From Acidovorax sp. sic0104 (GTDB taxonomy: Bacteria; Pseudomonadota; Gammaproteobacteria; Burkholderiales; Burkholderiaceae_C): a stretch of 64,000 nt of DNA. This document shows positions 49,996 to 64,000 of this stretch, piece by piece. How positions within the stretch are numbered: position 1 is the stretch's first letter; each line of letters opens with the position of its first letter. Made by a program: the position numbers and the translations under genes. The notes below the pieces were generated by a model. That model saw nothing but the letters and a program-made list of their open reading frames with translations. It was not told where the DNA came from and did not search any database. The stretch lies in NCBI RefSeq assembly GCF_019219095.1, contig NZ_JAHUWH010000004.1, forward strand, positions 186,001 to 250,000. The letters are read 5' to 3'.

Positions 49996-51549
49996 ATGAA
50001 GCGTTTGCACCCTGTTTCCTTGCAGATGGCAACCTGGGCCCTCGTGCTCTCGGCGGGCGCGCTGGCGTCGTGCGGTGGAGGGGGCGGGGGCAGCAGCGAC
50101 GCCGGCGCAGGCAACAACCCCGGCGGCGCGCAGCTGCCCGCGCGCGAGGCGCTCATCGCCCGCGCCCGGGCGCTGGAACTCAACACACCCTATGTGCCTC
50201 CCCCGGGCGATGTGCTGGAGCACCATACCGCCGGCTACGCCAAGACCATGTGCTCGGCGGTGTTCATCACCGGGCTGGACCCGGACGTGGCGGCCGAGAG
50301 CGTGGGGTACTTCACGGGCCCCTACGAGCAGCGCAAGCGCGTGGGCAAGCCGGTGGTGGACCGCGAGCGCAAGGAAGTGCGCATCACCATCCCCGGCGGG
50401 CCGACGGTGGTGGCGCGCCATCATGCGTCGCAAGGCTGCGTGGCGTTGCCGCCGGGGCGTGATGGCGTGTTCTTCACCCCTGCCGCCGTGCGCAGCAACC
50501 TGCCCGACGCGGCCACCCAGCCCTGGCCCATGGGCGACGTGCTGCCCGGCGGGTTGCCATCCGGCTACGACACCGGCCGGGCCGCGCAGGCGGTGGATGC
50601 CGCGTTTTTGGTGCCCGACGCCTACACGACGGCCTTTGTGGTCACCTACAAGGGCCGCATCATCGGTGAACGCTACATGCCCGGCATCACGCGTACCACC
50701 CCGCTCGAATCGTGGTCCATGGGCAAAAGCGTGGTGGCCACGCTCATGGGCGTGCTGATGCAGCAGGGCGAGTACAAGCTTGACCAGCCCGCCCCCATCC
50801 CCGAGTGGCAGACCGCGGGCGACCCGCGCCAGCAGATCCGCATCGCCGACATCCTGCACATGTCCAGCGGGCTGCGCATCAAGGCGCCGGACGACCCTGA
50901 CTTCGACCCTGCCGGCACCTACCCGGATCACACCTATCTCTATACCGGCCGCGTCAACTCGTTCAACTACGCGGCCACCCGGCCGCAGCAGTGGCCACCC
51001 GGCGCGGTGGGCCGCTACCGCAACACCGAGCCCGTGCTGGCGAGCTACCTGGTGCGCCTGGCCGTGGAAAAGCGCGGGGAGGACTATTTCTCGTTTCCGC
51101 AGCGCAGCCTGTTCGACAAGATCGGCGTCCGCTCCATGGTGATGGAGACCGACCCCTACGGCAACTTTCTCACCCAAGGCTATGAGTTCATGGCCGCGCG
51201 CGACTGGGCGCGCCTGGCAAACCTGTACCTGCAGGACGGCGTCTGGAACGGCGAGCGCATCCTGCCCGCGGGCTTCGTCAATTTCGTGAGCACCGTGGCT
51301 CCCGCCTGGGCTGCTGACAAGCGCCCCATCTATGGCGGCTTCTTCTGGATCAACGGCACGGGGACCTTCCCGGCCCTGCCCACCTCGGCGTACTACATGC
51401 TTGGCGCGGGCGGGCAGTTCGTGATCATCGTGCCCTCGCACGACCTGGTCGTGGTGCGGATGGGCTTCGACAAGGGCTCGCCCCTGGCGGGCGTCGGACT
51501 GCAGCGCGCACTGGCGCTGCTGATGGAGGGGCTGCCGCGCACGCGGTAG
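49996..51549 (+). CDS. beta-lactamase-fold serine hydrolase, predicted lipoprotein
   Basis: A 517-residue class C beta-lactamase-like protein. The signal ends in LASC, so Cys26 should be lipidated, and a Gly/Ser-rich linker follows. The nucleophile motif S-x-x-K is S241-M-G-K244 in LESWSMGKSVVATLMG. Further motifs are YRNTEPVLASYL (Tyr/Asn pair) and a C-terminal GAGGQFVIIV block near the KTG position. It is more likely an esterase or peptidase than a resistance enzyme. AAGGACTGA precedes the start. It stands alone after rodA. Confidence 0.9.
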   Translation: MKRLHPVSLQMATWALVLSAGALASCGGGGGGSSDAGAGNNPGGAQLPAREALIARARALELNTPYVPPPGDVLEHHTAGYAKTMCSAVFITGLDPDVAAESVGYFTGPYEQRKRVGKPVVDRERKEVRITIPGGPTVVARHHASQGCVALPPGRDGVFFTPAAVRSNLPDAATQPWPMGDVLPGGLPSGYDTGRAAQAVDAAFLVPDAYTTAFVVTYKGRIIGERYMPGITRTTPLESWSMGKSVVATLMGVLMQQGEYKLDQPAPIPEWQTAGDPRQQIRIADILHMSSGLRIKAPDDPDFDPAGTYPDHTYLYTGRVNSFNYAATRPQQWPPGAVGRYRNTEPVLASYLVRLAVEKRGEDYFSFPQRSLFDKIGVRSMVMETDPYGNFLTQGYEFMAARDWARLANLYLQDGVWNGERILPAGFVNFVSTVAPAWAADKRPIYGGFFWINGTGTFPALPTSAYYMLGAGGQFVIIVPSHDLVVVRMGFDKGSPLAGVGLQRALALLMEGLPRTR

Positions 51550-51709
51550 GACCGGTGCCAATCAGGCGGGCCCGCACCGGGGCCGCCGCGCGTACATCCC
51601 GATCCGAACTGGGGTCTCTGCCCCGGCGTTGCATGTGCCGCGGCAAGCGGGTACAACCCGGCTGGCGGTTCCCGCATTCCTTGGCCTGTGCACACGGAGG
51701 ACATCCCCC

Positions 51710-52048
51710 ATGGCGGCGAAGTTCGAGCTGAAGAAGTCGAAGAACGACAAGTTTGTGTTCAACCTGCTGGCCACCAACGGCCAGGTCATCCTGACCAGCG
51801 AACTGTACGAATCCCGTGCCAGTGCGCTCAGCGGTATCGAGTCCGTCCGCAAGCATGCGCCGCAGGGCGGCCGGTTCGGCCGGCTGAGCGCCAAGGACGG
51901 TTCGCCCTATTTCACCCTCAAGGCCGGCAACGGCCAGGTCATCGGCCAAAGCCAGATGTACACGGGGGCCAAGGCGCGGGATGCGGGCATCGAGTCGGTG
52001 CAGGCCCATGCGCCTGGGGCGGGCGTGGACGATCAGACCGCTGCCTGA
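51710..52048 (+). CDS. YegP family protein (two DUF1508 repeats)
   Basis: A 112-residue protein consisting of two related about 45-residue beta-rich repeats. The first is FELKKSKNDKFVFNLLATNG to GIESVRKHAP, the second GRLSAKDGSPYFTLKAGNGQ to GIESVQAHAP. Each has the NGQVI core. Relatives form small dimers of unknown function, sometimes stress-induced. A strong ribosome binding site CGGAGGACA precedes the ATG. It is a single-gene unit between the serine hydrolase and tldD. Confidence 0.92.
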   Translation: MAAKFELKKSKNDKFVFNLLATNGQVILTSELYESRASALSGIESVRKHAPQGGRFGRLSAKDGSPYFTLKAGNGQVIGQSQMYTGAKARDAGIESVQAHAPGAGVDDQTAA

Positions 52049-52126
52049 CACGGATTTGCAGGCGGCCCTGCCTCACCCGCGCAGGGGCATCTGCGGCGGC
52101 CGTCCGGCGGGACAGGGCGGCGCGCC

Positions 52127-52132
52127 TAAAAT
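52127..52132 (+). promoter_or_regulatory. -10-like TAAAAT box before tldD
   Basis: TAAAAT is followed by six bases (GCCGCG) and the tldD ATG at 52139. No Shine-Dalgarno sequence fits in the gap, which suggests a leaderless transcript. Confidence 0.5.
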
Positions 52133-52138
52133 GCCGCG

Positions 52139-53623
52139 ATGACTCTCCGCACTTCCACTGCCGCCCCCCAGCGCGCGGCGACCAGCCAGCGCATCGATGT
52201 TGCCCGCGAACTGCTGCTGACTCCCTTCGGCCTCGACGAGAGCCATCTGGCCCGGGCCCTGGCCGAGATCCGCGCCCACCAGGTGGACGACGCGGACCTG
52301 TACTTCCAGTACACGCGCAGTGAAGGCTGGAGCCTGGAGGAAGGCATCGTCAAGACCGGTTCGTTCAGCATCGACCAGGGCGTGGGCGTGCGGGCGGTCA
52401 GCGGGGAGAAGACCGCTTTTGCGTACTCGGACGACATCTCCGAGGCTTCCCTGCTGGATGCCGCACGCACTGTGCGATCAATTTCGGCTGCATCGCGCTC
52501 TGGCAGGGCGCGAGTAGCTCCTAAAAAGGTAGCGGCGGGCCGCAGCCTCTACCCTGGCGTGGACCCCATCGCATCGCTGGACAGCACGGCCAAGGTGGCC
52601 CTGCTGGAGCGGCTGGAGCAGCGCGCCCGTGCCAAGGACCCGCGCGTGTCCCAGGTCATGGCGGGCCTGGCCAGCGAGTACGACGTGGTGCTGGTGGCCC
52701 GAGCCGACGGCACCCTGGCGGCCGATGTGCGTCCGCTGGTGCGGCTGTCGGTGACGGTGATCGCCGAGCAGAACGGCCGGCGCGAGGTGGGCTCGGCCGG
52801 CGGTGGCGGGCGTTTTGGCCTGGCGTACTTCGACGACGCGCAGATGAACCAGTACGTTGATGAAGCCGTCAACGCGGCGCTGGTGAATCTCGAATCCCGC
52901 CCCGCACCGGCTGGCGAGATGACCGTGGTGCTCGGCCCTGGCTGGCCCGGCATCCTGCTGCACGAAGCCATCGGCCACGGGCTGGAAGGCGACTTCAACC
53001 GCAAGGGCTCGAGCGCATTCAGCGGCCGCGTGGGCCAGCGGGTGGCGGCCAAGGGCGTGACCGTGCTGGACGACGGCACCATCGCCGACCGCCGTGGCTC
53101 GCTGAACGTGGACGATGAAGGCAATGCCAGCCAGCGCAACGTGCTGATCGAAGACGGCATCCTCAAGGGCTACATCCAGGACTCGCTCAACGCCCGCCTG
53201 ATGGGCGTGGCGCCCACCGGCAACGGCCGCCGAGAGAGCTATGCGCACATCCCCATGCCGCGCATGACCAACACCTACATGCTCGGTGGCGACAAGGACC
53301 CGCAGGAGATCGTGGCCAGCATCAAGAAAGGGCTGTACGCCACCAATTTCGGCGGCGGCCAGGTGGATATCACCTCGGGCAAGTTCGTGTTCTCGGCCAG
53401 CGAAGCCTACTGGGTCGAGAACGGCAAGATCCTGTATCCCGTGAAGGGCGCCACCATCATCGGCAGCGGCCCGGAGTCGCTCAAGAAGGTCACCATGATC
53501 GGCAACGACATGCGCCTCGATAGCGGTGTAGGCACCTGCGGCAAGGAAGGCCAGAGCGTTCCGGTGGGCGTGGGCCAGCCCACGCTGCGCCTGGAAGGCC
53601 TGACGGTGGGCGGTACGGCCTGA
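52139..53623 (+). CDS. tldD: metalloprotease TldD
   Basis: A 494-residue TldD protease subunit, partner of TldE/PmbA. The HExxxH zinc motif lies in ILLHEAIGHGLEGDFNRKGS. Strongly conserved blocks include IDQGVGVRAVSGEKTAFAYS, GTLAADVRPLVRLSV, NGRRESYAHIPMPRMTNTYM and the C-terminal GKEGQSVPVGVGQPTLRLEG. The heterodimer degrades unfolded peptides and, in some hosts, matures microcins. tldE is not in the window. Between about residues 120 and 145 a loop (RSGRARVAPKKVAAGR) is encoded partly by a copy of the 17-bp repeat and differs from the usual TldD sequence. Confidence 0.97.
   Translation: MTLRTSTAAPQRAATSQRIDVARELLLTPFGLDESHLARALAEIRAHQVDDADLYFQYTRSEGWSLEEGIVKTGSFSIDQGVGVRAVSGEKTAFAYSDDISEASLLDAARTVRSISAASRSGRARVAPKKVAAGRSLYPGVDPIASLDSTAKVALLERLEQRARAKDPRVSQVMAGLASEYDVVLVARADGTLAADVRPLVRLSVTVIAEQNGRREVGSAGGGGRFGLAYFDDAQMNQYVDEAVNAALVNLESRPAPAGEMTVVLGPGWPGILLHEAIGHGLEGDFNRKGSSAFSGRVGQRVAAKGVTVLDDGTIADRRGSLNVDDEGNASQRNVLIEDGILKGYIQDSLNARLMGVAPTGNGRRESYAHIPMPRMTNTYMLGGDKDPQEIVASIKKGLYATNFGGGQVDITSGKFVFSASEAYWVENGKILYPVKGATIIGSGPESLKKVTMIGNDMRLDSGVGTCGKEGQSVPVGVGQPTLRLEGLTVGGTA
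52517..52533 (+). repeat. 17-bp GCT...AGC dispersed repeat, copy 6 (inside tldD)
   Basis: This copy reads GCTCCTAAAAAGGTAGC and is translated as part of a variable surface loop of TldD. Length relative to Escherichia coli TldD is preserved, from memory of that sequence. Confidence 0.6.
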
Positions 53624-53656
53624 GGCCGTTTCCAGCCACGCAGCGCACACGACAGC

Positions 53657-54667
53657 ATGCAGTTCACGCGGCTACTTTCCGGGTCCGGGTGGGGTCCCGC
53701 CGCGCTGTGCGCGCTGGGCTGGACCTTGAGCGGGTCGGTCCTGGCCTCCCAGTGCCTGGTGCGGGAAACAAGTCCCACCGCGCCCGTGCGCCAACTTTTT
53801 GTGGTGGCAGGGCAGTCCAATGCCGCGGGCCTGGCGTCTGTGAAGGACGTCGTCGGCGGGCCGGAGGACTATGCGCGGCAGGACACGGTCTTTCCGAATG
53901 TGAAGATCTATGGGATCTATGGTGCACCCCTGGGTGTGGCGGGTAGAGACGACGGGCGGCTTTCGCGGGGATTGCCGTGGAGCCGCTTCGCATCCTGGCA
54001 GACGGCGCAGCCTGGTTTCGGTTTCAAGAACGTGAAGCCATATGCCAGCGAATTTCCCCCTGGCGTGACGGCGAAGGAAGTTTTTGGCCCGGAATTATAT
54101 TTGGCGAGATACTTGAATGATGTACCGCCTCATGACTCCTATATTGTCAAGCTGGCCGTGGCGAATACATCGCTGAGTTCCCTGGGTGCCCTGGATAATT
54201 GGGCCCCAGGTGGACGATTGAATAACGAGCTTCTGAAAATGATCGCTGATGCCTATAATTCCCAGAGGTGGAAGGTCAGGCTGCAGGTTGCCGGTATTTT
54301 CTGGATGCAGGGGGAAACGGATGCGCTCAATGAAGCATCGGCTCTTCAATATAAAAAGAATCTGAGCGGATTCATAAAAAGATTCCGGCAATCGCTCGTC
54401 CGCATGAAGTGCGCCAGCGATGTCGAAGTTCCCGTGGTGGTAGGGCGGATCCAGGACAATCCGACATGGGTGCACAGGAGTCATGTGCGTCTGGCACAGG
54501 CTCAGGTGGCCCACGAGCTGCCGCGAGTCAGCCTTGTCGATACGGATGATTTTTCCGCTCACCTTGTGGTAGGGGGCGTCCATTTCAATGAGATTGCACA
54601 GGCGCGGCTTGGAGAGAGAGCTTTTGGGGCTTTCTTCGCGGGCGCTGGCCATGCAAGAAAAGAGTGA
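53657..54667 (+). CDS. sialate O-acetylesterase-like (SASA/DUF303) carbohydrate esterase
   Basis: A 336-residue exported SGNH-type esterase. A signal peptide (ALCALGWTLSGSVLASQCL) precedes LFVVAGQSNAAGLASV, the SASA nucleophile block. WMQGETDALNEASALQYKKN and VGGVHFNEIAQARLGERAF carry the other blocks, including the His. It would remove acetyl groups from sugars in the periplasm or outside. The 3' half is clearly less GC-rich than the preceding core genes. A UUCG terminator follows, so it is probably its own transcript though functionally linked to the carbamoyltransferase cluster. Confidence 0.85.
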   Translation: MQFTRLLSGSGWGPAALCALGWTLSGSVLASQCLVRETSPTAPVRQLFVVAGQSNAAGLASVKDVVGGPEDYARQDTVFPNVKIYGIYGAPLGVAGRDDGRLSRGLPWSRFASWQTAQPGFGFKNVKPYASEFPPGVTAKEVFGPELYLARYLNDVPPHDSYIVKLAVANTSLSSLGALDNWAPGGRLNNELLKMIADAYNSQRWKVRLQVAGIFWMQGETDALNEASALQYKKNLSGFIKRFRQSLVRMKCASDVEVPVVVGRIQDNPTWVHRSHVRLAQAQVAHELPRVSLVDTDDFSAHLVVGGVHFNEIAQARLGERAFGAFFAGAGHARKE

Positions 54668-54696
54668 CCCTCTGTCGGGTTGTGCTTCCCGGGTTG

Positions 54697-54717
54697 CGAG
54701 CGCTTCGGCGCTCTTTT
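54697..54717 (+). terminator. UUCG-loop intrinsic terminator after the SASA gene
   Basis: GAGCGC at 54697-54702 and GCGCTC at 54707-54712 pair around a TTCG tetraloop, followed by five T residues. It separates the esterase from the carbamoyltransferase transcript, which starts within the next 35 bp. Confidence 0.85.
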
Positions 54718-54752
54718 TGAGTTTCGCTTGTAGAACGTGTGGTTGATCCTCT

Positions 54753-56585
54753 ATGAATATATTGGGAATTTCTTCGTATTATCACGACAGTGCAGCAGCC
54801 ATCCTGCGCTCGGGTCGGATAGTCGCCGCTGCACAGGAAGAGCGATTCACCAGAAAAAAGCACGATGCACGGTTTCCGGAGAATGCGGTCAGATATTGCC
54901 TTCAGGAGGCCAATGTTCGGGTGAGTGACCTGGATTCCATCGTTTTCTACGATAAGCCGATTCTGAAATTCGAGCGGCTTCTCGATACCTACCTGAGCTA
55001 TGCGCCGAGCGGTTTCCGCTCCTTCGTCGCGGCAGTCCCCGTGTGGCTGAAAGAGAAGCTTTATCTCAAGCGGACCCTCAAGCACGAGCTTGCTGCCCTG
55101 CTGGCGTGCAAGGAGTCGGAACTGCCGCCCATCCTGTTCGCGGAGCACCATGAATCCCATGCTGCGTCTGCGTTCTACCCGAGCCCCTTCGACAAGGCGG
55201 CCGTCTTGTGCCTGGACGGCGTCGGCGAATGGGCCACCACCTCGGCCTGGCTGGGGGACGGGGCAGATCTCAAGCCCCTGTGGCAGATTGAGTTTCCGCA
55301 TTCCCTGGGATTGCTCTATTCGGCATTCACTTATTACCTGGGCTTCAAGGTCAACTCTGGTGAATACAAGCTCATGGGGCTGGCGCCTTATGGCAAGCCC
55401 ATTTACACGCAGCTGATCTGGGATCACTTGATCGACATGAAGCCGGACGGGTCTTTCCGGTTGAACCTCGATTATTTTGATTACTGCACCGGCCTTCGGA
55501 TGACGAACCAGAAGTTCGCGGACCTGTTTGGTGCACCGCCTAGGGATTCCGATGCCACCCCGACGCAGCGAGACATGGACCTGGCGGCATCCATTCAGGC
55601 GGTGACGGAAGAGGTGGTGATCAAGCTGGCCCGCCAACTGCAGAGCGAGACGGGCGCGGACTACCTGTGCATGGCGGGCGGTGTGGCACTCAACTGCGTG
55701 GCCAACGGCCGATTGTTGAGGGAAGGCATCTTCAAGGACATATGGATCCAGCCGGCGGCCGGGGATGCGGGGGGGGCGCTGGGCGCAGCCTACGCTTCCT
55801 ATCACACGTACCGCGGGCAGCCCCGCGTTCAGGGCGAGGCAGGCAGAGACCAGATGCAGGGCTCGCTGCTCGGCCCGCAGTATCCGCAGGCCGCCGTCAC
55901 CCAGGCGTTGAGCGAGCTGGGTGCGAGCTACACCGTCCTGGACGACGAGAGCCTGTACAGCACGGTCGCTGGATTGCTGGCGAGCGAAAATGTGGTGGGC
56001 TGGTTCCAGAACCGGATGGAATTTGGCCCGCGTGCTCTGGGCGCCCGCTCGATCATTGCGGACCCCCGTTCGAGCGCAATGCAGTCCCAGTTGAACCTGA
56101 AGATCAAGTTCCGGGAGTCCTTCCGTCCCTTCGCCCCTGCCGTCAAGGAAGAGGCGGTGGAGAAATACTTCCATCTTGATCGCCCGAGCCCCTACATGCT
56201 GCTGGTGGCGCAAGTGCACGACAGCATTCAGCTCCATCCAGACCAGTCGCTGGAGGGCCTGGCGCAGCTGCACCAGGTGCGCTCCAGCATCCCGGCCGTG
56301 ACCCACGTGGACTATTCTGCGCGGGTGCAGACCGTGAACCCCGAGAGCAACCCGCAGTTCTACAAGCTGCTGACGGCGTTTGAGGCGCAGACAGGTTGCC
56401 CGGTTCTGGTGAATACGTCCTTCAACGTGCGTGGCGAGCCCATCGTGTGTACGCCAGAGGATGCGTATCGCTGCTTCATGGGAACGGACATGGACTATCT
56501 CGTGGTGGGAAATGTCCTGCTGGCCAAGGAAGATCAGACGAATGCCAAGGTCGAGTTCCGCAAGGGCGCCCTGGCACTGGATTGA
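54753..56585 (+). CDS. O-carbamoyltransferase (NodU/CmcH/SxtI family)
   Basis: A 610-residue carbamoyltransferase that transfers carbamoyl from carbamoyl phosphate, through carbamoyl-adenylate, to a hydroxyl group. The N-terminal Kae1-like domain has MNILGISSYYHDSAAAILRS, the metal-binding AEHHESHAASAFY and LCLDGVGEWATTS. The C-terminal YrdC-like part has MEFGPRALGARSIIADPR and LVNTSFNVRGEPIVCTPEDA. The acceptor is unknown; in relatives it is a Nod factor, antibiotic or toxin. It starts a four-gene run with almost no gaps: SxtJ-like, a 50-residue SxtK-like protein and an SGNH hydrolase. Confidence 0.95.
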   Translation: MNILGISSYYHDSAAAILRSGRIVAAAQEERFTRKKHDARFPENAVRYCLQEANVRVSDLDSIVFYDKPILKFERLLDTYLSYAPSGFRSFVAAVPVWLKEKLYLKRTLKHELAALLACKESELPPILFAEHHESHAASAFYPSPFDKAAVLCLDGVGEWATTSAWLGDGADLKPLWQIEFPHSLGLLYSAFTYYLGFKVNSGEYKLMGLAPYGKPIYTQLIWDHLIDMKPDGSFRLNLDYFDYCTGLRMTNQKFADLFGAPPRDSDATPTQRDMDLAASIQAVTEEVVIKLARQLQSETGADYLCMAGGVALNCVANGRLLREGIFKDIWIQPAAGDAGGALGAAYASYHTYRGQPRVQGEAGRDQMQGSLLGPQYPQAAVTQALSELGASYTVLDDESLYSTVAGLLASENVVGWFQNRMEFGPRALGARSIIADPRSSAMQSQLNLKIKFRESFRPFAPAVKEEAVEKYFHLDRPSPYMLLVAQVHDSIQLHPDQSLEGLAQLHQVRSSIPAVTHVDYSARVQTVNPESNPQFYKLLTAFEAQTGCPVLVNTSFNVRGEPIVCTPEDAYRCFMGTDMDYLVVGNVLLAKEDQTNAKVEFRKGALALD

Positions 56586-56591
56586 AACCTC

Positions 56592-57008
56592 ATGAGCAAG
56601 AAAACTGAAAATCTCCCGGTGGTGAGCGATACCGAACTGCGCAAGTTCGGCTACGTGATGGCGGGCTTCTTTGCCCTGTTCTTCGGCGTGCTGCTGCCGT
56701 GGTGGTGGTCCATGAAGTGGGCCTACTGGCCCTGGGTGGTTGCTGCCGTGTTCCTGGCCGTTGCTCTGGCTGCGCCCGGGCTGCTGCACTGGCCGTACAG
56801 GTTCTGGATGCGCCTGGGCAGGGTGCTGGAGTGGGTCAACACAAGATTGGTGCTGGGTGTCGTGTTTGTCCTGGTCTTTGCTCCGCTTGGGTGGGTGCTG
56901 CGGTTGCTGGGCAAGGACACCCTGCAAAAGAAGTGGGACAGTCGTTTGACGACATACCGAGTCAACAAGGTGCCTAGGAAGGCCGATCACATGGAGCGTC
57001 AATTCTGA
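56592..57008 (+). CDS. SxtJ-family membrane protein
   Basis: A 138-residue protein with two or three hydrophobic segments (FGYVMAGFFALFFGVLLPWW, VVAAVFLAVALAAPGLLHWP and LVLGVVFVLVFAPLGWVL). It begins 6 bp after the carbamoyltransferase stop, and its stop overlaps the next ATG. The sequence and position match SxtJ, an uncharacterised partner found next to O-carbamoyltransferases, as in saxitoxin clusters. It may anchor the enzyme at the membrane or handle its product. Role is inferred from context only. Confidence 0.82.
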   Translation: MSKKTENLPVVSDTELRKFGYVMAGFFALFFGVLLPWWWSMKWAYWPWVVAAVFLAVALAAPGLLHWPYRFWMRLGRVLEWVNTRLVLGVVFVLVFAPLGWVLRLLGKDTLQKKWDSRLTTYRVNKVPRKADHMERQF

Positions 57009-57160
57009 TGTTGGAATTACTGAAAGAACTCGTCCTGTTCTTCAAGGAACACAAGCGGTATTCGCTGATCCCCGTGCTGGCGGTATTGCTGCTGCTGGGC
57101 GCCCTCATTGTTTTCGGACACGGATCGGTGTTGGCACCCTTCATCTACACGCTGTTCTGA
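57008..57160 (+). CDS. small membrane protein, SxtK/DUF5989-like
   Basis: A 50-residue protein with one membrane helix (LIPVLAVLLLLGALIVFGHG) after a charged amphipathic start (LKELVLFFKEHKRY) and a short tail. Its ATG overlaps the SxtJ-like stop by one base. The size, single helix and position after carbamoyltransferase and SxtJ match the SxtK/DUF5989 group. The order and tight coupling suggest that the three proteins form one membrane complex. Confidence 0.8.
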   Translation: MLELLKELVLFFKEHKRYSLIPVLAVLLLLGALIVFGHGSVLAPFIYTLF

Positions 57161-57163
57161 TCC

Positions 57164-58318
57164 ATGAAGAAACTCTTGTACCTCCTGCTGCCGACACTGG
57201 CACTTTGCATGCTGGTCGGGCTGGGATATGGGGTCGGGGTCTACACGGTCGCGGGACGGTTCGAGAAGACAATCCACTGGGTCGAGCAGGGGGAGACCCT
57301 GGCGGGCGTGCTGGCGATCACGCCGCTCAACGATGAGCAGCGAAACGGCATCAAGAATGCCTACAGCAACCCGGACATCGACGCTCGCAATATCAGCTGG
57401 TCGGTCCCCAATCAGCCGACCCCCTTTGTGGGCACCGCCCCGGCTCCGGGGCAGCACCACAATGCGCATATCAATGCATGGCAGATGCGCAACAGTGAAG
57501 AGGTCCAGGTCCCCAAGCCTGCGGGCGTCTATCGGATTTTCCTTACCGGGGGGTCCACGGCCTTTGGGTCTGGAGCGCCCAGCCAGGACAAGACGATCGG
57601 CAGCCTGCTCAATGGCCTGCTCGCGGACAGGCTGTCGCAAAAGACGGGGCGGCGCTATGAGGTCTTCACCTTCGCCAACCCGTCCTGGGCGTCGACGCAG
57701 GAGCGCATTGCCATTGAGAACTACCTGTCGGAGCTCCAGCCCGATCTGGTCGTTTCTCTGTCTGGCAACAACGACGTCTTCTGGGGTGACGCGGGCCGCA
57801 ATGTGCTGTGGTTTGCCGCAGGGGCGGACGAGTACTTCCAGACGCTGGTCAATACGGGCCTGAAAACAGCGGGCAGAAAAGAGTTGTCTGCGCTCCCGCA
57901 GGCTCGGCCGACATCGCAGCCCGTGGCTGCTGAGCTGGTGTCCTATCGGCTGGAAAAGAATGCACGCCTGAGCGCGCAGGCGTTGGAGCATGTGAATGCT
58001 GACTGGATCTTCTTCCTGCAGCCCACGTTGTCCGTGACGCGCAAAGCGCTGAGCTCTCGCGAGCAGGCTTTTGTTCCGGCATCGAAGAACTATTTCGTGC
58101 AGTGTTATGCACTGATGTCGTCCAGTTTGGCCGGGCTGCGCCAGAGCAATTTCAGGTTTGTCGACTTGTCGAAGATTTTTGACAGCTACCAGGCAACCGA
58201 TGAAGTATTTCTCGACCAGTTTCATTTCGGTGACAAGGGCAATGCCGTCATTGCCGACGCAATGTTCTCCGCCATAGCCCATCATCTGACGGGGCAGTCC
58301 GCCGTTTCCAAACCATGA
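57164..58318 (+). CDS. membrane-anchored SGNH/GDSL hydrolase of the carbamoyltransferase cluster
   Basis: A 384-residue protein with an N-terminal membrane or signal segment (LLYLLLPTLALCMLVGLGYG). SGNH blocks are FLTGGSTAFGSGAPSQDKT (nucleophile Ser), FANPSWASTQE, VVSLSGNNDVFWG (Asn) and FLDQFHFGDKGNAVIAD (Asp/His pair). It starts 3 bp after the SxtK-like stop. SGNH proteins of this type often add or remove acetyl groups on polysaccharides, so this may finish decoration of the same carrier. Two hairpins follow the gene (58325-58350 and 58377-58410). Confidence 0.82.
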   Translation: MKKLLYLLLPTLALCMLVGLGYGVGVYTVAGRFEKTIHWVEQGETLAGVLAITPLNDEQRNGIKNAYSNPDIDARNISWSVPNQPTPFVGTAPAPGQHHNAHINAWQMRNSEEVQVPKPAGVYRIFLTGGSTAFGSGAPSQDKTIGSLLNGLLADRLSQKTGRRYEVFTFANPSWASTQERIAIENYLSELQPDLVVSLSGNNDVFWGDAGRNVLWFAAGADEYFQTLVNTGLKTAGRKELSALPQARPTSQPVAAELVSYRLEKNARLSAQALEHVNADWIFFLQPTLSVTRKALSSREQAFVPASKNYFVQCYALMSSSLAGLRQSNFRFVDLSKIFDSYQATDEVFLDQFHFGDKGNAVIADAMFSAIAHHLTGQSAVSKP

Positions 58319-58324
58319 CGCAAT

Positions 58325-58410
58325 GCGGCCAAGCCTGAAGGTTTGGCCGCGCAACCGCGCCCGAGTTGTTGCTTTGCCGTCGCACCGTGTGCCCATGCAG
58401 GGTGCGACGG
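58325..58410 (+). terminator. two consecutive hairpins after the SGNH gene
   Basis: The first stem pairs 58325-58335 with 58340-58350 (11 bp with one G-U pair, TGAA loop). The second pairs 58377-58386 with 58401-58410 (perfect 10 bp). Neither has a full T-run, but together they plausibly end the carbamoyltransferase transcript. Confidence 0.5.
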
Positions 58411-58432
58411 TCGTTTCCTCTGGCGGGGAGCG

Positions 58433-58438
58433 CAAAAT
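58433..58438 (+). promoter_or_regulatory. -10-like CAAAAT box before the hypothetical gene
   Basis: CAAAAT is followed by six bases (ACCCGC) and the ATG at 58445, the same spacing as at rodA and tldD. Confidence 0.4.
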
Positions 58439-58444
58439 ACCCGC

Positions 58445-58984
58445 ATGCCCGCCACGATTCCGAGCCAGCAGTTGACACTCCAGTCGTTTGGAGACATCAG
58501 CCGCTTTCTGCGCGAGGGCGTCGCCGATGAAGAGTCCCGTCAGCTGCGGGATAGCCTGAGCGCGCTTTCCAGCCAGATCGACGAGGCCGTGCGCACCCGG
58601 CGCACCAGTACCGACACGGCCACCATCATGCAGCGGGTGGCTAGCCTGTCTCAGTGCGCTCGCGAGCACCAGCTGTTCCTCACCGGCCTGGGCTCGGCAT
58701 GGCATGCGCTGTACGAGTTCGGTGCGTATCAGCGCGCGCTGCGCGAACTGCGCAACGCCATTGCCCACTGGCAGCAGATGCTGGAGCGCCGCAGCGCCAA
58801 GGAGAGTGCGGGGTTTGATCAGTTCGAGCTGCTGGCCTGGCGCACGCTGGGAGAGGCCTTGCTGCTCATCGACATGTACGAACACCACAGCGATCCGCCC
58901 AGCGACCTTTCTGACGTCGGGGGGCGGTCCAAGTTGTCCGCTCTGCAGCGCGTTCGCAACTGGTTTGGGCGGTTGCGGCGCTGA
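58445..58984 (+). CDS. hypothetical helical protein
   Basis: A 179-residue protein without signal peptide or membrane segment. It is predicted to be almost all helical, for example DEESRQLRDSLSALSSQIDE, LTGLGSAWHALYEFGAYQRA and ELRNAIAHWQQMLERRSAKE. I do not recognise a family. The ATG at 58445 lies behind a -10-like box. It ends about 86 bp before the aroG leader peptide, so the two could in principle share read-through, though the leader has its own promoter. Confidence 0.6.
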   Translation: MPATIPSQQLTLQSFGDISRFLREGVADEESRQLRDSLSALSSQIDEAVRTRRTSTDTATIMQRVASLSQCAREHQLFLTGLGSAWHALYEFGAYQRALRELRNAIAHWQQMLERRSAKESAGFDQFELLAWRTLGEALLLIDMYEHHSDPPSDLSDVGGRSKLSALQRVRNWFGRLRR

Positions 58985-59057
58985 AGGGAGTTGCTGTGCC
59001 GTGCACTGTTGCTCAGTCGCAACGCACTGGGCTTGCTGCACTGCGGCACTCCTGTGC

Positions 59058-59063
59058 TACATT
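59058..59063 (+). promoter_or_regulatory. extended -10 of the aroG leader promoter
   Basis: TACATT preceded by TGC gives an extended -10 element; a weak -35 TTGCTG lies at 59033-59038. The expected start of transcription is at or next to ATG 59071, so the leader peptide itself would be translated from a leaderless RNA. Confidence 0.5.
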
Positions 59064-59070
59064 GCTTTCC

Positions 59071-59127
59071 ATGCAAGTTCGCAGCGCGTTTTATTTTTGG
59101 TTTTTTATCTCGGTCCCCGGCGGATGA
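59071..59127 (+). CDS. aroG attenuator leader peptide
   Basis: An 18-codon frame encodes MQVRSAFYFWFFISVPGG and stops at TGA 59125-59127. Six of its central residues are aromatic: four Phe, one Tyr and one Trp in the run FYFWFF. It sits about 140 bp upstream of the DAHP synthase start, between a good -10 element and a terminator-type hairpin. This composition and position are diagnostic of a transcription-attenuation leader that senses charged aromatic tRNAs. Confidence 0.85.
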   Translation: MQVRSAFYFWFFISVPGG

Positions 59128-59203
59128 GAGGAAAACGCGCAAGCAGACACAACCTCCCCATACCAACCGCCGACGCTGCAAAGCCCGGCGGTTTTTGTTT
59201 TTT
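59118..59203 (+). promoter_or_regulatory. aroG transcription attenuator (antiterminator and terminator stems)
   Basis: Three segments compete. CGGCGG at 59118-59123, at the end of the leader ORF, and CGGCGG at 59186-59191 can each pair with CCGCCG at 59167-59172. Pairing of the last two forms a terminator stem followed by TTTTTGTTTTTT (59192-59203). A ribosome stalled on the aromatic codons would leave the first segment free to pair, blocking the terminator. A ribosome reaching the stop codon would cover it and allow termination. Confidence 0.82.
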
Positions 59204-59269
59204 CAGCCTCCGCTTTTCATCTCCGTTCCTTTCTTCATCCAACCAACGACTCCACGAGGAAGCAGCACC

Positions 59270-60391
59270 ATGACGGTCTCCCACACCCCCACCAGCGATG
59301 CCTGGTACCGCAGCGTCGAGAAAACCAGCCAGACCGACGACGAACGTATCAAGGACATCACCGTGTTGCCTCCTCCCGAACACCTGATCCGCTTCTTCCC
59401 CATCAGCGGCACGCCGGTGGAGTCGCTGATCACCCAGACCCGCCAGAACATCCACAACATCATGGCCGGCGACGACGACCGCTTGCTGGTCATCATCGGT
59501 CCCTGCTCCATTCACGACCCGGCTGCAGCCCTCGAATATGCCCGCCGCCTGAAGGTGGCCCGCGAGCAATACAAGGACACGCTGGAGATCGTGATGCGCG
59601 TGTACTTCGAAAAACCCCGCACCACGGTCGGCTGGAAGGGTCTGATCAACGACCCCTACCTGGACGAGACCTATCGCATCGACGAAGGCCTGCGCATCGC
59701 GCGCCAGCTGCTGATCGACATCAACCGCCTGGGCATGCCTGCGGGCAGCGAGTTCCTGGACGTGATCTCGCCCCAGTACATCGGAGATTTGATTTCCTGG
59801 GGCGCCATCGGCGCGCGCACCACCGAAAGCCAGGTGCACCGCGAACTGGCCTCGGGCCTGTCTGCCCCCATCGGCTTCAAGAACGGCACGGACGGCAACA
59901 TCCGCATCGCCACCGACGCCATCCAGTCCGCCAGCCGCGGCCACCATTTCCTGTCGGTGCACAAGAACGGCCAGGTCGCCATCGTCAACACCAATGGCAA
60001 CAAGGACTGCCACGTGATCCTGCGCGGCGGCAAGGCGCCCAACTACGACGCCGAGAGCGTGGCCGCCGCCTGCAAGGACCTGGAAGCCGCCAAGCTGCCC
60101 GCCACGCTGATGGTGGACTGCAGCCATGCCAACAGCAGCAAGCAGCACCAAAAGCAGATGGACGTGGCGCGCGACGTGGCCGGCCAGATTGCTGGGGGCT
60201 CGCGCAGCGTCTTCGGCCTGATGATCGAGAGCCACCTCACCGCGGGCGCCCAGAAGTTCACGCCAGGCAAGGACGACGCCTCCGCGCTGACCTACGGGCT
60301 GAGCATCACCGACGCCTGCCTGGGCTGGGACGATTCGCTGCAGTCGCTGGCAGAGCTGTCCGAGGCTGTGAAGGCACGTCGCGCGCGCTGA
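59270..60391 (+). CDS. aroG: 3-deoxy-7-phosphoheptulonate (DAHP) synthase
   Basis: A 373-residue type I DAHP synthase, condensing phosphoenolpyruvate and erythrose-4-phosphate at the head of the shikimate pathway. The metal-binding Cys lies in IIGPCSIHDPAAALEYARRL. RVYFEKPRTTVGWKGLINDP, EFLDVISPQYIGDL and LMVDCSHANSSKQHQKQ are further family blocks. GAGGAAG precedes the ATG at 59270. An aromatic leader peptide and attenuator lie directly upstream. Feedback specificity (Phe, Tyr or Trp) cannot be read safely; the leader composition leans towards Phe. Confidence 0.97.
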   Translation: MTVSHTPTSDAWYRSVEKTSQTDDERIKDITVLPPPEHLIRFFPISGTPVESLITQTRQNIHNIMAGDDDRLLVIIGPCSIHDPAAALEYARRLKVAREQYKDTLEIVMRVYFEKPRTTVGWKGLINDPYLDETYRIDEGLRIARQLLIDINRLGMPAGSEFLDVISPQYIGDLISWGAIGARTTESQVHRELASGLSAPIGFKNGTDGNIRIATDAIQSASRGHHFLSVHKNGQVAIVNTNGNKDCHVILRGGKAPNYDAESVAAACKDLEAAKLPATLMVDCSHANSSKQHQKQMDVARDVAGQIAGGSRSVFGLMIESHLTAGAQKFTPGKDDASALTYGLSITDACLGWDDSLQSLAELSEAVKARRAR

Positions 60392-60507
60392 TGAACGCCG
60401 CAGGGTCGCGCCGCGCTGGCGTGGCCCTAAACTGATACCGTGGTGCCGATACCTGGCACGCGCTGCCACCAACCCCGGTTATCAGAACAGAAGAAAGGCA
60501 ATCCAAC

Positions 60508-60819
60508 ATGCACAGCGAAGTCTCCGTCCGCCTGGCCGCAAGCCAGGAATTCCGGTTCGATCTGAAAGACGCCGAGCCCATGGGCCACGAGGCCGGCCGG
60601 CGTTGGCTGGATGAACAGTTCACCGCGCTGGACTGCGAACCCCTGCGCGCCAGCGGCAAGGTGCTGCTGGCCGACAAGGTGTTGACCGTGGCGCGTGCCG
60701 CGGGCGAAAGGCTGCTCGCCGACCCCGCCTGGCTGAAGGACTTTGCCCGCGCATCCACGGCCGCGCTGGCCAAGCCGGTGGTGCGGGTGGATGTGCCTGC
60801 GATGGCCGTCACGTTCTGA
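60508..60819 (+). CDS. hypothetical conserved-looking small protein
   Basis: A 103-residue soluble protein beginning MHSEVSVRLAASQEFRFDL. It is acidic to neutral with mixed beta and helical character and no cysteine pair apart from one Cys in ALDCEPL. A purine-rich AGAAGAAAGG precedes the ATG. I recognise no domain. It lies between aroG and the convergent mpl gene. Confidence 0.6.
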   Translation: MHSEVSVRLAASQEFRFDLKDAEPMGHEAGRRWLDEQFTALDCEPLRASGKVLLADKVLTVARAAGERLLADPAWLKDFARASTAALAKPVVRVDVPAMAVTF

Positions 60820-60922
60820 TCACCTTCTCGGGACGGCGCGCCGAGGGGGTGGCTGCGTCGCTCCCTTCAAGTTGCGGATGCGGTAGAAATTGCTCCTAAG
60901 GCTTGTCAAATAAGCGCCTGCA

Positions 60923-60939
60923 GCTATTTATCTTGTAGC
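60923..60939 (-). repeat. 17-bp GCT...AGC dispersed repeat, copy 7 (spans the mpl stop codon)
   Basis: This copy reads GCTATTTATCTTGTAGC on the plus strand. On the minus strand it encodes the last Mpl residues LQDK and supplies the TAG stop codon. It was apparently captured as the 3' end of the gene. Confidence 0.62.
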
Positions 60940-62363
60940 GCTTGCAGCAACTTGGCGTGGACGCCCCCGAACCCGCCGTTGCTCATGCACACGATGTGAT
61001 CGCCTGGCAGGGCGGACTGGGCGACCAGCGTCACCAGCGTATCGATATCTGCGGCCGTCTGGGCGCGCCGCCCGGGGCCCACGCCCAGCGGTGCCAGGGC
61101 TTGCGCGGCGTCCCAGTCCAGGCCTGCGGTGTGGCAGAACGCCAGATCGGCGGGCTCCAGGGACCAGGGCAGTTGCGCCTTCATGGCACCCAGCTTCATG
61201 GTGTTGCTGCGGGGCTCGAACACGGCCAGTATCCGGGTGGGCTGGCCACCACCGCTCTTGCCGTCGTTTGCCGCATCGATGCTGCGGCGCAGGCCGTCCA
61301 GCGTGGTGCGGATGGCCGTCGGGTGGTGGGCGAAGTCGTCATATACGGCGACGCCACCCACTGTGCCGCGCAGCTCCATGCGGCGCTTGACGTTCTGGAA
61401 CGACCCCAGCGCGAGGGCGGCCTGCTTCGGGGGGACGCCCACATGGTGCGCCGCGGCGATGGCTGCCAGCGCGTTGAGCTGGTTGTGCACGCCCGTCAGG
61501 CCCCATTCGACGCGGGCGGTTCTCTGGCCCCGGTGCAGCACGTCGAAGGCGTGCGGCGGGCCGTCGGCCGAAAAGTCGCCCACGGCGTCGCCGAAACTGC
61601 TCACCTCACTCCAGCAGCCCATGTGCAGCACCCGGGCCAGGCTTTCCTCCAGTCCGTTGACCACCACGCGGCCCGATGGCGGCACGGTGCGCACCAAGTG
61701 GTGGAACTGCCGCTCGATGGCTGCCAGGTCATCGAAGATGTCCGCGTGGTCGAACTCCAGGTTGTTCAGTACGGCGGTGCGGGGGCGGTAGTGCACGAAC
61801 TTGCTGCGTTTGTCGAAGAAGGCCGTGTCGTATTCATCGGCTTCGATGACGAAAAGAGGGCGGGCTGCGGGTTGCTTGGCGGCGAACTGGCCCAGGCGGG
61901 CCGACAGGCCGAAGTTCAGCGGCACGCCGCCAATCAGGAACCCGGGCTGCTGGCCTGCGCTCTCCAGGATCCACGCGAGCATCGACGTGGTGGTGGTCTT
62001 GCCGTGCGTGCCCGCCACGGCCAGCACATGGCGGCCCTGCAGCACATGCTCGGCCAGCCACTGCGGACCGCTGGTGTAGGGCAGGCCGGCCTCCAGAATG
62101 GCTTCCATGAGCGGGAACTTGGGAGACCCATCGGGCAACCGGGCACGGCTGACCACATTGCCCACCACGAACATGTCGGGCTTGAGGGCCACCTGATCTG
62201 CGCCGAAGCCCTCGATCAGGTCGATGCCCAGGGCCCGGAGCTGGTCGCTCATCGGCGGGTACACGCCCGCATCGCAGCCGGTGACTTTGTGCCCCGCCTC
62301 GCGCGCCAGCGCCGCCAGGCCGCCCATGAACGTGCCGCAGATGCCCAGTATGTGTATATGCAT
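60924..62363 (-). CDS. mpl: UDP-N-acetylmuramate:L-Ala-gamma-D-Glu-meso-DAP ligase
   Basis: A 479-residue Mur ligase that reattaches recycled murein tripeptide to UDP-MurNAc. It opens MHIHILGICGTFMGGLAALA. The ATP loop is AGTHGKTTTTSMLAWILE; further blocks are FVIEADEYDTAFFDKRSKFV, LNNLEFDHADIF and YDDFAHHPTAIRTTLDGLR. Length and sequence fit Mpl rather than MurC. TAGAAT lies 8 nt before the ATG. The last few codons come from a copy of the dispersed repeat, so the natural C-terminus has probably been altered. Confidence 0.96.
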   Translation of the reverse strand: MHIHILGICGTFMGGLAALAREAGHKVTGCDAGVYPPMSDQLRALGIDLIEGFGADQVALKPDMFVVGNVVSRARLPDGSPKFPLMEAILEAGLPYTSGPQWLAEHVLQGRHVLAVAGTHGKTTTTSMLAWILESAGQQPGFLIGGVPLNFGLSARLGQFAAKQPAARPLFVIEADEYDTAFFDKRSKFVHYRPRTAVLNNLEFDHADIFDDLAAIERQFHHLVRTVPPSGRVVVNGLEESLARVLHMGCWSEVSSFGDAVGDFSADGPPHAFDVLHRGQRTARVEWGLTGVHNQLNALAAIAAAHHVGVPPKQAALALGSFQNVKRRMELRGTVGGVAVYDDFAHHPTAIRTTLDGLRRSIDAANDGKSGGGQPTRILAVFEPRSNTMKLGAMKAQLPWSLEPADLAFCHTAGLDWDAAQALAPLGVGPGRRAQTAADIDTLVTLVAQSALPGDHIVCMSNGGFGGVHAKLLQALQDK

Positions 62364-62371
62364 GGGCGCAG

Positions 62372-62377
62372 ATTCTA
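62372..62377 (-). promoter_or_regulatory. -10-like TAGAAT box before mpl
   Basis: On the minus strand TAGAAT is followed by 8 nt (CTGCGCCC) and the mpl ATG at 62363, with no ribosome binding site in between. Confidence 0.45.
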
Positions 62378-62514
62378 AGAGCCAGCCCACGGGCGGCCGG
62401 GCGCCGTGGCCCAGAGCCCGCTGCGGTGCCGCAAGGCGCTCGCACAAAGGGCGCGGCCTGCAAGGTATGAGGGGGGTGCGGCGGGCTCTGAAGCCCATCA
62501 ATGCTGCGTGGACA

Positions 62515-62531
62515 GCTACTAAAAATGTAGC
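62515..62531 (+). repeat. 17-bp GCT...AGC dispersed repeat, copy 8
   Basis: This copy reads GCTACTAAAAATGTAGC and lies in the divergent spacer between mpl and the 62.6-kb gene. Confidence 0.65.
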
Positions 62532-62639
62532 AATTGTGCCAGCGGTACTGACGATCCCATCGGATCCAAGGGTCAACCCCTATCCACCGTGGCGGTTGGC
62601 GCCACAATGCGAAGGTGTCTTTCTGCCGCCCTGACTGCC

Positions 62640-63239
62640 ATGCACACACCTTTGAGCGAAGAGATCGCCCACACCACGGCCCGCCTGGTAGTGGAAGAGG
62701 GCCTGGAATGGGGGCCGGCCAAGCGCCGCGCGCTGCGCCAGATGGGCCTGCCTGCCCGCACGCCGCTGCCCGACAACGACCAGGTCGAGGCGGCGGTGCG
62801 CGAATACATCGACATCTTCTGCGCCGACACCCAGCCCCGCGAATTGCGGGCCCTGCGGCAACTGGCGCTGGTTTGGATGGAACGCATGGCCGCTTTCCGG
62901 CCGCATCTTGCCGGCGCAGTGTGGCATGGCACCGCCACACGCCTGTCGGATATTTATCTTCAATTGTTTTGCGATGACTCGAAATCTGCGGAAATAGCGC
63001 TCATCGACCACCATGTGGACTACGAACCGCGTACCGTGACGGGTTTCCACGGCGAGTCCGTGGAGGCCCTGAGCCTGGGCAGCAAGTCGCCGGAACTCAA
63101 TGAAATGATCGGCGTGCACTTGATGATTTACGACCTGGACGACCTGCGGGGTGCCTTGCGGCCCGACGCGAAAGGCCGTGTGCCGCGTGGCGACATCACG
63201 GCCGTGCGGCGCCTTCTGCAGGAAAATGCTGCCCCATGA
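62640..63239 (+). CDS. hypothetical protein with nucleotidyltransferase-like motif
   Basis: A 199-residue soluble protein. The N-terminal half is helical (EIAHTTARLVVEEGLEWGPA). The centre reads HGTATRLSDIYLQLFCDD, which resembles the GS..R..SDIDL motif of nucleotidyltransferases, but a Tyr replaces the second Asp. The ATG at 62640 was chosen; starts at 62589 and 62607 are also possible and would add an unconserved-looking tail. Its stop overlaps the thioredoxin ATG (ATGA), so the two are coupled. Function is unknown. Confidence 0.6.
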   Translation: MHTPLSEEIAHTTARLVVEEGLEWGPAKRRALRQMGLPARTPLPDNDQVEAAVREYIDIFCADTQPRELRALRQLALVWMERMAAFRPHLAGAVWHGTATRLSDIYLQLFCDDSKSAEIALIDHHVDYEPRTVTGFHGESVEALSLGSKSPELNEMIGVHLMIYDLDDLRGALRPDAKGRVPRGDITAVRRLLQENAAP

Positions 63240-63817
63240 ATGCTCCTGTACCTTCCGAGTCCACCCTGGCGGCAGAGTCTGCGCCGTTCCCATCGTCGGG
63301 GCGTCGGCGTCTGCTGTATGCAGGAGTGGCGGGCGCTGCGGCACTGGGTGGTGCCGGGCTCGCATGGTGGAAGTTCCAGCCGCATGCCATCGAGAGCGGC
63401 GCGGAGCAGGCCTTGTGGGCGCTGGATTTCGAGCGGCCCGAGGGCGGGACGGTGGCGCTCAAGGAGATGGCCGGCAAGCCGTTGCTCCTGAACTTCTGGG
63501 CCACGTGGTGTGCGCCCTGCGTCGAAGAGCTTCCCATGCTCAACGCGTTCTTCCGCGAACAGGCCGCCAATGGCTGGCAAGTGCTGGGTTTGGCGATCGA
63601 TCAGCCCTCGGCGGTGCGCAAGTTCCTGGCACGCATTCCGCTGGAGTTTCCCGTGGGACTGGCTGGAATGGGGGGGACTGAACTGGGCCGTTCGCTTGGC
63701 AACCTCACCGGTGGCCTGCCTTTTACCGTCGTGCTGGGTGGCAATGGCCGGGTGCTGCACCGTAAAATGGGGCAGGTGACGCCGCAGGATCTGCAACTCT
63801 GGGCTTCTTTGCGATGA
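63236..63817 (+). CDS. TlpA-like membrane-anchored thioredoxin
   Basis: A 193-residue redox protein. An N-terminal membrane or signal helix (LLYAGVAGAAALGGAGLAWW) follows a basic GRRR stretch. The active site is FWATWCAPCVEELPML (W-C-A-P-C), and the cis-Pro loop is GGLPFTVVLGG. It would reduce disulphides in the periplasm, for example in cytochrome c maturation. Its ATG overlaps the stop of the preceding hypothetical gene. It lies just upstream of accB. Confidence 0.92.
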   Translation: MNAPVPSESTLAAESAPFPSSGRRRLLYAGVAGAAALGGAGLAWWKFQPHAIESGAEQALWALDFERPEGGTVALKEMAGKPLLLNFWATWCAPCVEELPMLNAFFREQAANGWQVLGLAIDQPSAVRKFLARIPLEFPVGLAGMGGTELGRSLGNLTGGLPFTVVLGGNGRVLHRKMGQVTPQDLQLWASLR

Positions 63818-63975
63818 CTTCCAGGCGGTCCAAATCCGCCTTCCTGGATGCCGAAAGGTGCGGGGACGTGCGAATTGTCAGCGGAAGTTCATGAAAAATA
63901 AGTGTGGAAGACGGTGATAGGGTGAAATTGGAGTAAATTCGCGCCCTATTCAGTTTTATAGCCGTTGGAGCTTCC

Positions 63976-64000
63976 ATGGATCTGCGAAAACTCAAAACCC
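63976..64000 (+). CDS. accB: acetyl-CoA carboxylase biotin carboxyl carrier protein, 5' end only
   Basis: Only eight codons are visible, MDLRKLKT, the usual start of AccB in betaproteobacteria. TTGGAGC lies 6 bases upstream as a ribosome binding site. Position after the TlpA-like gene fits the common mpl - hypothetical - tlpA - accB - accC order, from memory. The call rests on eight residues plus context. Confidence 0.7.

Follow-up and report, generated by a model that had tools for sequence, protein, structure and literature searches.

The aroG locus and its leader

The window (the whole 64,000-nucleotide stretch of DNA that was analysed) carries an aroG gene on the plus strand at 59270..60391, encoding a class I DAHP synthase (3-deoxy-7-phosphoheptulonate synthase) of 373 amino acids. 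The protein matches TIGR00034 with 538 bits (cut-off 173) and scores 554 against the equivalog NF006723, slightly below the cut-off of 568. Among the matches listed, the closest named relative is Acidovorax sp. Leaf191, whose AroG is 98% identical. By eye, a Shine-Dalgarno-like GAGGAA precedes the gene at 59256..59261 (+). Further upstream on the same strand, window positions 54753-58318 hold a NodU/carbamoyltransferase-like gene (with an NCBIfam match far under the cut-off), a 138-amino acid ORF and a 384-amino acid ORF that has no NCBIfam match.

A leader peptide ORF of 18 codons, MQVRSAFYFWFFISVPGG, is located at 59071..59127 (+) and ends in a TGA stop codon at 59125-59127. It contains consecutive Phe-Tyr-Phe-Trp-Phe-Phe codons at 59089..59106 (+), which form the predicted stall region. 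Segment 2 (CGGCGG, 59118..59123, +), the left arm of the antiterminator, lies within the last leader codons. Segment 3 (CCGCCG, 59167..59172, +) is common to the antiterminator and the terminator, and segment 4 (CGGCGG, 59186..59191, +) is the right arm of the terminator, followed immediately by the T-run TTTTTGTTTTTT (59192..59203, +). The original prediction, which had reported an ORF of this length with FYFWFF ending at 59127, was correct to the base, and its three GC-rich segments and T-run are all present in the layout described. Two further helices are predicted. In a protector hairpin that is suggested by folding and encloses segment 2, segment 1 (GCGCGUUUU, 59084..59092, +) forms the left arm and AAAACGCGC (59132..59140, +) the right arm, and a second antiterminator helix has its left arm (AUG.GAGG) at 59124..59131 (+) and its right arm (CCUC..CAU) at 59153..59161 (+).

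As in trp- and phe-type attenuators, an intrinsic terminator, identified by sequence, stands between the leader and the gene. A terminator scan of positions 58800-59500 returned three terminator-like sites, including this hairpin, against a shuffle mean of 0.7. The whole-leader fold is modestly better than that of shuffled sequences (z -1.86, 10 of 200 shuffles as good).

The genome has a second AroG-type gene (locus L001, minus strand, ATG near 2540), which is without such a leader. A third PF00793 match (L003) falls in a 418-amino acid open frame that overlaps a 469-amino acid ORF at its end. We took the latter ORF for CTP synthase, and given this neighbour the L003 match is presumably KdsA. 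A leader is also absent from the stretch scanned at pheA (L246). At trpE (L245, contig C2, minus strand) there is a separate leader-like ORF, MFIHHVFITGCSDRGAWPWRPPVCLNA, containing WPW. Its ATG lies at 2267 (plus coordinates), which is 236 nt upstream of the trpE start. The box TGCTACACT, similar to that of the aroG leader, is directly 5' of this ATG. By eye, no T-run was found downstream of the trpE leader-like ORF, so if it is regulatory it may act otherwise than by a T-run terminator.

Conservation of the leader among close relatives

We examined 81 loci, comprising the window and 80 named relatives, the best 80 of at least 581 confirmed through AroG. A leader, here an ATG-started ORF that is 18-29 codons long and has an aromatic cluster, precedes aroG in 79 of the 81, which bears out the expectation of FYFWFF-like peptides in related Comamonadaceae and, as in trp- and phe-type leaders, places a cluster of end-product codons ahead of the biosynthetic gene, here for DAHP synthase. 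The other two loci were not assessable, one because its upstream DNA is just 31 nt long (L013) and the other, from a beta MAG (L082), because its contig ends upstream of an intron end. There, the 3' terminus of a group II intron (RF00029, L082:70-141) lies between the expected leader site and aroG. All 79 assessable loci have the aromatic cluster, with four to nine aromatic codons per leader, and 77 contain Phe, Tyr and Trp together (L040 and L067 are without Trp). Outside the cluster the peptide is variable in both sequence and length (18-29 amino acids).

The frequency of such ORFs by chance was estimated by searching the 300 nt before aroG for short ATG ORFs with at least five Phe, Tyr or Trp codons within eight. 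The test was carried out on 78 loci, with L081 excluded for Ns (a run of 100 N at L081:1360-1459, between the terminator and aroG). Such an ORF was found in 77 of the 78 loci compared with 68 of 15,600 dinucleotide-preserving shuffles, and a stretch with all three residues in 76 loci compared with 17 shuffles. None of the 78 antisense strands had one. A chance ORF was rejected as an explanation on the basis of these shuffles. Among the codons around Trp, 58 of the 216 that differ between leaders are synonymous and 37 are aromatic-to-aromatic exchanges, i.e. fractions of 0.27 and 0.17 versus 0.16 and 0.07 for random single changes, in a rough, ungapped count over 69 of 71 distinct leaders.

The leader ORF is probably leaderless

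An extended -10 promoter element, TGCTACATT, is predicted from its match to the consensus at 59055..59063 (+), 7 nt 5' of the leader ATG, and transcription is predicted to start at or adjoining the A of that ATG. A sigma-70 scan that requires a -35 element reported zero promoters before the leader. Taking the best-scoring box within 4-10 nt upstream of the ATG at each locus, we found a TGnTAnnnT box 6-8 nt 5' of the ATG in all 79 loci, and a Shine-Dalgarno-like tetramer before the ATG in none of them. The promoter consensus of the leader loci is CTGTGCTACATT; the -35 region is not conserved. The proximity of the extended -10 box to the ATG, together with the missing Shine-Dalgarno sequence, suggests that the leader ORF is probably leaderless, as had originally been proposed. 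Among 40 leaders from other Burkholderiales families, this spacing between the -10 box and the ATG is kept in 17 (and in no leader from families f3, f8 and f32), and 3 have a Shine-Dalgarno-like tetramer.

The leaderless layout predicted here is that of rnTrpL, which the available text of PMC10117765 and PMC7298713 describes as giving rise to both a functional leader peptide and an sRNA. It is conceivable, although unlikely, that here too the terminated leader RNA or peptide acts in trans, like rnTrpL/peTrpL, and that attenuation in cis is just part of its role. Against this, it is the codon content and the pairing segments that are conserved, and the peptide varies outside its aromatic cluster (18-29 amino acids).

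Covariation of the pairing segments

In the alignment of the 79 leaders (A1), segments 2, 3 and 4 are almost invariant and so uninformative for covariation; the search was therefore widened to other families. The resulting set of 119 comprises the 79 leaders and 40 distinct leaders from other families. The base beside the GGCGG/CCGCC core is mostly C-G-C in the three segments and is jointly T-A-T in members of families f1, f4, f10, f11, f13, f23, f32 and f44 (Fisher p 5e-8 for the joint change, uncorrected for kinship). At this variable position segments 3 and 4 can pair in 115 of the 119 leaders and segments 2 and 3 in 99. These segments can form an antiterminator that uses the left arm of the terminator and is mutually exclusive with it, with an exception at this position in family f8, where segment 2 does not follow the change in segments 3 and 4 (0 of 5 pair).

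A second alignment (A2) contains 67 sequences, namely all 40 leaders from other families and 27 of the 79. In A2 the terminator helix (segments 3 and 4 with the flanking AA/UU) is paired in 99.3% of cells, of which 24 are changed on both sides, and the antiterminator (segments 2 and 3) in 94.8%, of which 13 are changed on both sides. For each helix, 0 of 500 shuffles had as many. Covariation is confined to two of the eight terminator pairs and one of the six antiterminator pairs, while the core never or hardly varies. The second antiterminator helix was assessed in 52 leaders of the set of 119, made up of the 40 from other families plus 12 from the group of 79, by comparing the pairing of each leader's arms with each other and with arms from other families. 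Own-sequence pairing exceeds cross-family pairing, and 0 of 2000 permutations were as good. The advantage is seen in 40 of the 52 sequences and 10 of the 13 families (f12, f23 and f32 pair no better with themselves). These covariation tests control only partly for relatedness and base composition. Across families, changes in segment 3 go together with changes in both segment 2 and segment 4, as expected of a terminator/antiterminator switch, so the compensatory stem changes that the original prediction proposed to look for were found, three-way ones included.

Pairing of the protector hairpin is weaker in the alignment. It pairs in 61.6% of cells, compared with 59.2% after shuffling and 66.4% if the arms are slid by two columns. 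The register of this hairpin shifts between clades, and covariation is weak in one alignment register.

Phe and Tyr codons are T-rich and the fold of the whole leader is modestly above shuffles, which would suit an ordinary terminator preceded by an aromatic run that is merely a chance T-rich stretch. We consider this scarcely credible given the rarity of such ORFs in shuffles, the Trp codon, the synonymous codon exchanges, the three-segment complementarity with its covariation and the association with a single kind of gene described below. A plain terminator was rejected because of the three-segment covariation. A riboswitch or RNA-binding protein that senses a free aromatic amino acid would fit a terminator/antiterminator pair, taken alone, equally well. 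By eye, however, A1 and A2 contain no conserved aptamer-like part beyond the ORF and pairing segments, and Rfam yielded no riboswitch match in window positions 50000-64000 or in 14 aroG leader loci. A riboswitch was rejected on the latter ground, and we regard a sensor of either kind as highly unlikely.

Modelling of ribosome positions

The effect of a translating ribosome on the leader was modelled with partition functions, in which the ribosome is a mask reaching 12 nt from the first A-site base (an assumed footprint). Before segment 4 is made, the modelled antiterminator probability in the window is 0.0003 for the free RNA. It is 0.98 when the ribosome is stalled, averaged across the six aromatic codons, and 0 when the ribosome has reached the stop codon. 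The means over the 79 leaders are 0.27, 0.96 and 0.00, respectively, and the stalled value exceeds the free value in 78 of them. In the mask model, therefore, a stall would free segment 2 and a ribosome at the stop codon would cover it. The stop codon is 13-31 nt past the start of segment 2 in 61 of the 79 leaders, so ribosome coverage is less sure there; the distance is 6 nt in the other 18, including the window.

At equilibrium the full-length transcript favours the terminator in all states, even when the ribosome is stalled (mean 0.92), so antitermination would have to be kinetic and decided during transcription. In classical trp attenuation the decision is likewise made during transcription.

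In the free state, the mean antiterminator probability is 0.15 for natural leaders and 0.46 when the ORF is shuffled, and 73 of the 79 are below their own shuffled mean. (This mean differs from the 0.27 given above because the transcripts modelled differ by one base.) The low value is due to pairing between the ORF and the stretch that follows segment 2. A shuffled spacer gives 0.08, lower than the 0.15 of the natural spacer. The free antiterminator probability is above 0.5 in 12 of the 79 leaders.

Distribution beyond close relatives

A covariance model built from A1 (R1) found only the aroG leader as a strong match in its own genome (next best E 0.23). R1 matched at E <=0.01 in 107 of 300 Burkholderiales genomes, and 69 of the 300, the window's own included, have full-length matches at E <1e-6. 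Forty of these 69 (29, L092-L120, and 11, L247-L257) were examined by tblastn of AroG, and all 40 precede an aroG-type gene. Of 80 regions upstream of aroG-type genes from the same sample, hand-picked across families, 28 have the leader. Counting the model matches as well, it is present in 14 Burkholderiales families (f1, f3, f4, f8, f10, f11, f12, f13, f20, f23, f30, f32, f40 and f44) and was not seen in 16 others, each sampled by one to five regions (f2, f5, f6, f14, f15, f18, f21, f22, f25, f26, f28, f33, f39, f43, f47 and f51). Seven regions with a looser aromatic ORF (L134, L163, L164, L165, L172, L184 and L193) were not counted, a judgement based on the missing ATG, few aromatic codons or unfitting segments. 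Copies without the leader also occur inside leader families (L124, L134, L140, L144, L167-L172 and L181); in f30, for example, one genome has it (L247) and L167-L169 do not. Relatives lacking the ORF or hairpins had been named in advance as the finding that would speak against an attenuator. There are none among the 79 assessable Comamonadaceae-type loci, but the 16 families in which no leader was found mean that the same cannot be said of the sampled Burkholderiales at large.

Burkholderiales aroG copies without the leader are numerous (L128-L131, L152-L158, L167-L169 and others). The element has therefore probably undergone several losses or gains in the order.

A second covariance model, built from A2 (R2), was searched against 299 genomes from the phylum and 321 from the class. 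Outside Burkholderiales we fetched 22 full-length matches with E <1e-5. Five are from the same class (four from f57 and one from f128) and the remainder from another class (six from f85, ten from f88 and one from f92). The gene after the match is a DAHP synthase in 22 of 22, 55-61% identical to that of the window, and all 22 leaders contain Phe, Tyr and Trp (e.g. MNAARASFYFWYYFPKPLAEEGLRSP and MITVATSYFWYFSYDSLLAAGGSRSI). T-A-T occupies the variable position in 17 of 21 of these leaders. A -10-like box is found 5-9 nt before the start codon in 17 of 21, using a pattern that was widened after inspection, and a Shine-Dalgarno-like tetramer in 0 of 21. Families f57 and f128 are probably Xanthomonadales, and f85 and f88 probably rhizobia. 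The element spans at least three proteobacterial lineages. R2 also picked up a Phe leader before pheA (L225), which matches Rfam RF01859 with 124 bits and served as an unplanned control. The weak model matches L226, L227, L232-L235 and L242 were set aside as they are not aromatic leaders before aroG.

Amino acids represented in the leader

The 40 leaders from other Burkholderiales families comprise 19 with all three aromatic amino acids, 19 with Phe and Tyr and two with Phe only (L142 and L191). One of them (L111, with a GTG start) was read by hand and counted as Phe and Tyr. Eleven further leaders (L247-L257) comprise two with all three, eight with Phe and Tyr and one with Phe only. Across these 51 leaders Phe is present in 51, Tyr in 48 and Trp in 21, making Trp the most dispensable of the three in other Burkholderiales.

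On the proposed reading, all three amino acids would be sensed. The original prediction that one leader averages the supply of three end products fits the Comamonadaceae-type leaders and those outside Burkholderiales, but does not extend to the 30 of 51 other Burkholderiales leaders that are without Trp. Because of this absence, Phe and Tyr may be the main signal. One version of attenuation would accordingly have Phe (with Tyr) as the real signal and the Trp codon as either a passenger or a slowly read codon that paces the ribosome. It draws on the occurrence of the three residues in these 51 leaders, on the separate leader-like ORF with WPW at the genome's own trpE, and on the Corynebacterium glutamicum aroR leader (Phe-Tyr-Phe), which answers Phe but not Tyr limitation according to the available part of PMC11802643. 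Against it stands the retention of Trp, which is present in 77 of the 79 leaders of Comamonadaceae type and in all 22 from outside Burkholderiales, and we consider this version a serious possibility that falls somewhat short of probable.

A proposed attenuation mechanism

The conserved peptide and the covarying stems support the reading of the aroG leader as an attenuator. We conclude that it is very likely a ribosome-mediated transcription attenuator that reads charged Phe, Tyr and probably Trp tRNAs. RNA polymerase would start at the leader ATG and a ribosome would load on the leaderless message. A ribosome stalled within the aromatic run (59089-59106) would disrupt the protector hairpin. 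Segment 2, thus freed, would pair with segment 3 before RNA polymerase had made segment 4, and aroG would be transcribed. A ribosome that reached the stop codon (59125-59127) would cover segment 2, allowing segments 3 and 4 to form the terminator and halt transcription at the T-run. In an untranslated leader, segment 2 would be hidden by the protector hairpin, which would likewise favour termination. A shortage of the aromatic amino acids would thereby switch aroG on. The ORF, its conserved codons and its complementary, covarying segments are features of the DNA itself; the start site, translation, stalling, termination and response are what this scheme would predict.

The element is real, conserved and coherent, and the mechanism proposed for it is of a known class. 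Within the literature searched, its mix of codons, its probable leaderless layout and its breadth are new. The broader picture, which we hold with confidence evenly divided, is that the shikimate entry enzyme of Comamonadaceae-type Betaproteobacteria, Xanthomonadales and rhizobial Alphaproteobacteria is controlled by a single leaderless leader, which pools the charging of tRNA-Phe, tRNA-Tyr and tRNA-Trp. Such leaders would form an old, widespread and unnamed family with Phe/Tyr-only versions in sister families. If this is true, the attenuator family sums three end products during a single passage of the ribosome, at the enzyme that sets carbon flow into all aromatic amino acids. Many of the sampled Proteobacteria appear to use such a ribosome-read switch, often one able to read all three end products; in Escherichia coli, the DAHP synthase genes are described in the available part of PMC11802643 as controlled by the repressors TyrR and TrpR. 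The leader would offer a way to test how the supply of several amino acids is weighed by one leader, and the RNA family could join Rfam and be used to annotate the aroG promoter in many genomes.

Comparison with known leaders

Close structural parallels are Phe_leader (pheA/pheST) and Trp_leader (trp operons), which consist of a leader peptide, a 2:3 antiterminator and a 3:4 terminator. The aroG leader resembles Phe_leader (RF01859) and Trp_leader in this layout and differs in the genes it precedes; the Rfam leader families, RF01859 included, gave no match in the 14 aroG loci or in window positions 50000-64000. In the enterobacterial ilv and thr leaders, one leader counts several amino acids. 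These differ from the aroG leader in having branched-chain or Thr/Ile codons and in not preceding the shikimate entry enzyme.

A three-aromatic leader before a DAHP synthase was not found in the literature searched, which was largely without subscription papers or supplements; the available text of PMC11109978 and PMC1262725 has nothing on DAHP synthase. A five-genome study without a betaproteobacterium reports, in its available part, two shikimate-gene uORFs with Phe and Tyr (PMC6429828). In Shewanella, RNA motifs are predicted for aroF and aroH (PMC2659441), and for E. coli aroF a Tyr-tRNA attenuator has been suggested (PMC2659441, with a remark in PMC8632094). These predictions share Proteobacteria and DAHP synthase genes with the aroG leader, and differ from it in that the available descriptions, on which this comparison is based, mention no aromatic leader peptide.

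The original prediction held that attenuation of aroG-type genes is much less familiar than that of trp or pheA. The attenuator reading is supported, but attenuators before DAHP synthase genes are not unknown, as the following two examples illustrate. The Acholeplasma uORFC-13-1 motif before aroF has a predicted uORF with Phe codons and a terminator (available part of PMC8632094). It has the predicted uORF and terminator before a DAHP synthase in common with the aroG leader and, compared by description only, differs in its RBS, its Phe content of at least one residue and its range, with 24 sequences that come from a single genus and from environmental DNA. Attenuation by ribosome stalling has been reported for the C. 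glutamicum aroR leader (Phe-Tyr-Phe) before aroF, which encodes a DAHP synthase (Neshat et al. 2014, as described in the available parts of the review PMC11802643 and of PMC4046766). The aroR leader likewise places a short aromatic leader peptide before a DAHP synthase gene. By description, it has only Phe-Tyr-Phe and belongs to another phylum, whereas the 79 aroG leaders contain between four and nine aromatic codons, Trp mostly among them, together with a conserved CGGCGG switch of three segments.

A leaderless ATG was originally thought unusual for an attenuator, a view that has to be qualified since leaderless leaders are already known. In the available text of PMC10117765 and PMC7298713, the Sinorhizobium meliloti trpL/rnTrpL is an attenuator ORF that starts at the first base of the transcript. 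It has the leaderless layout that is predicted for the aroG leader and differs by its Trp codons and its site before trpE(G), and the aroG leader is a candidate for a leaderless attenuator in addition to it.
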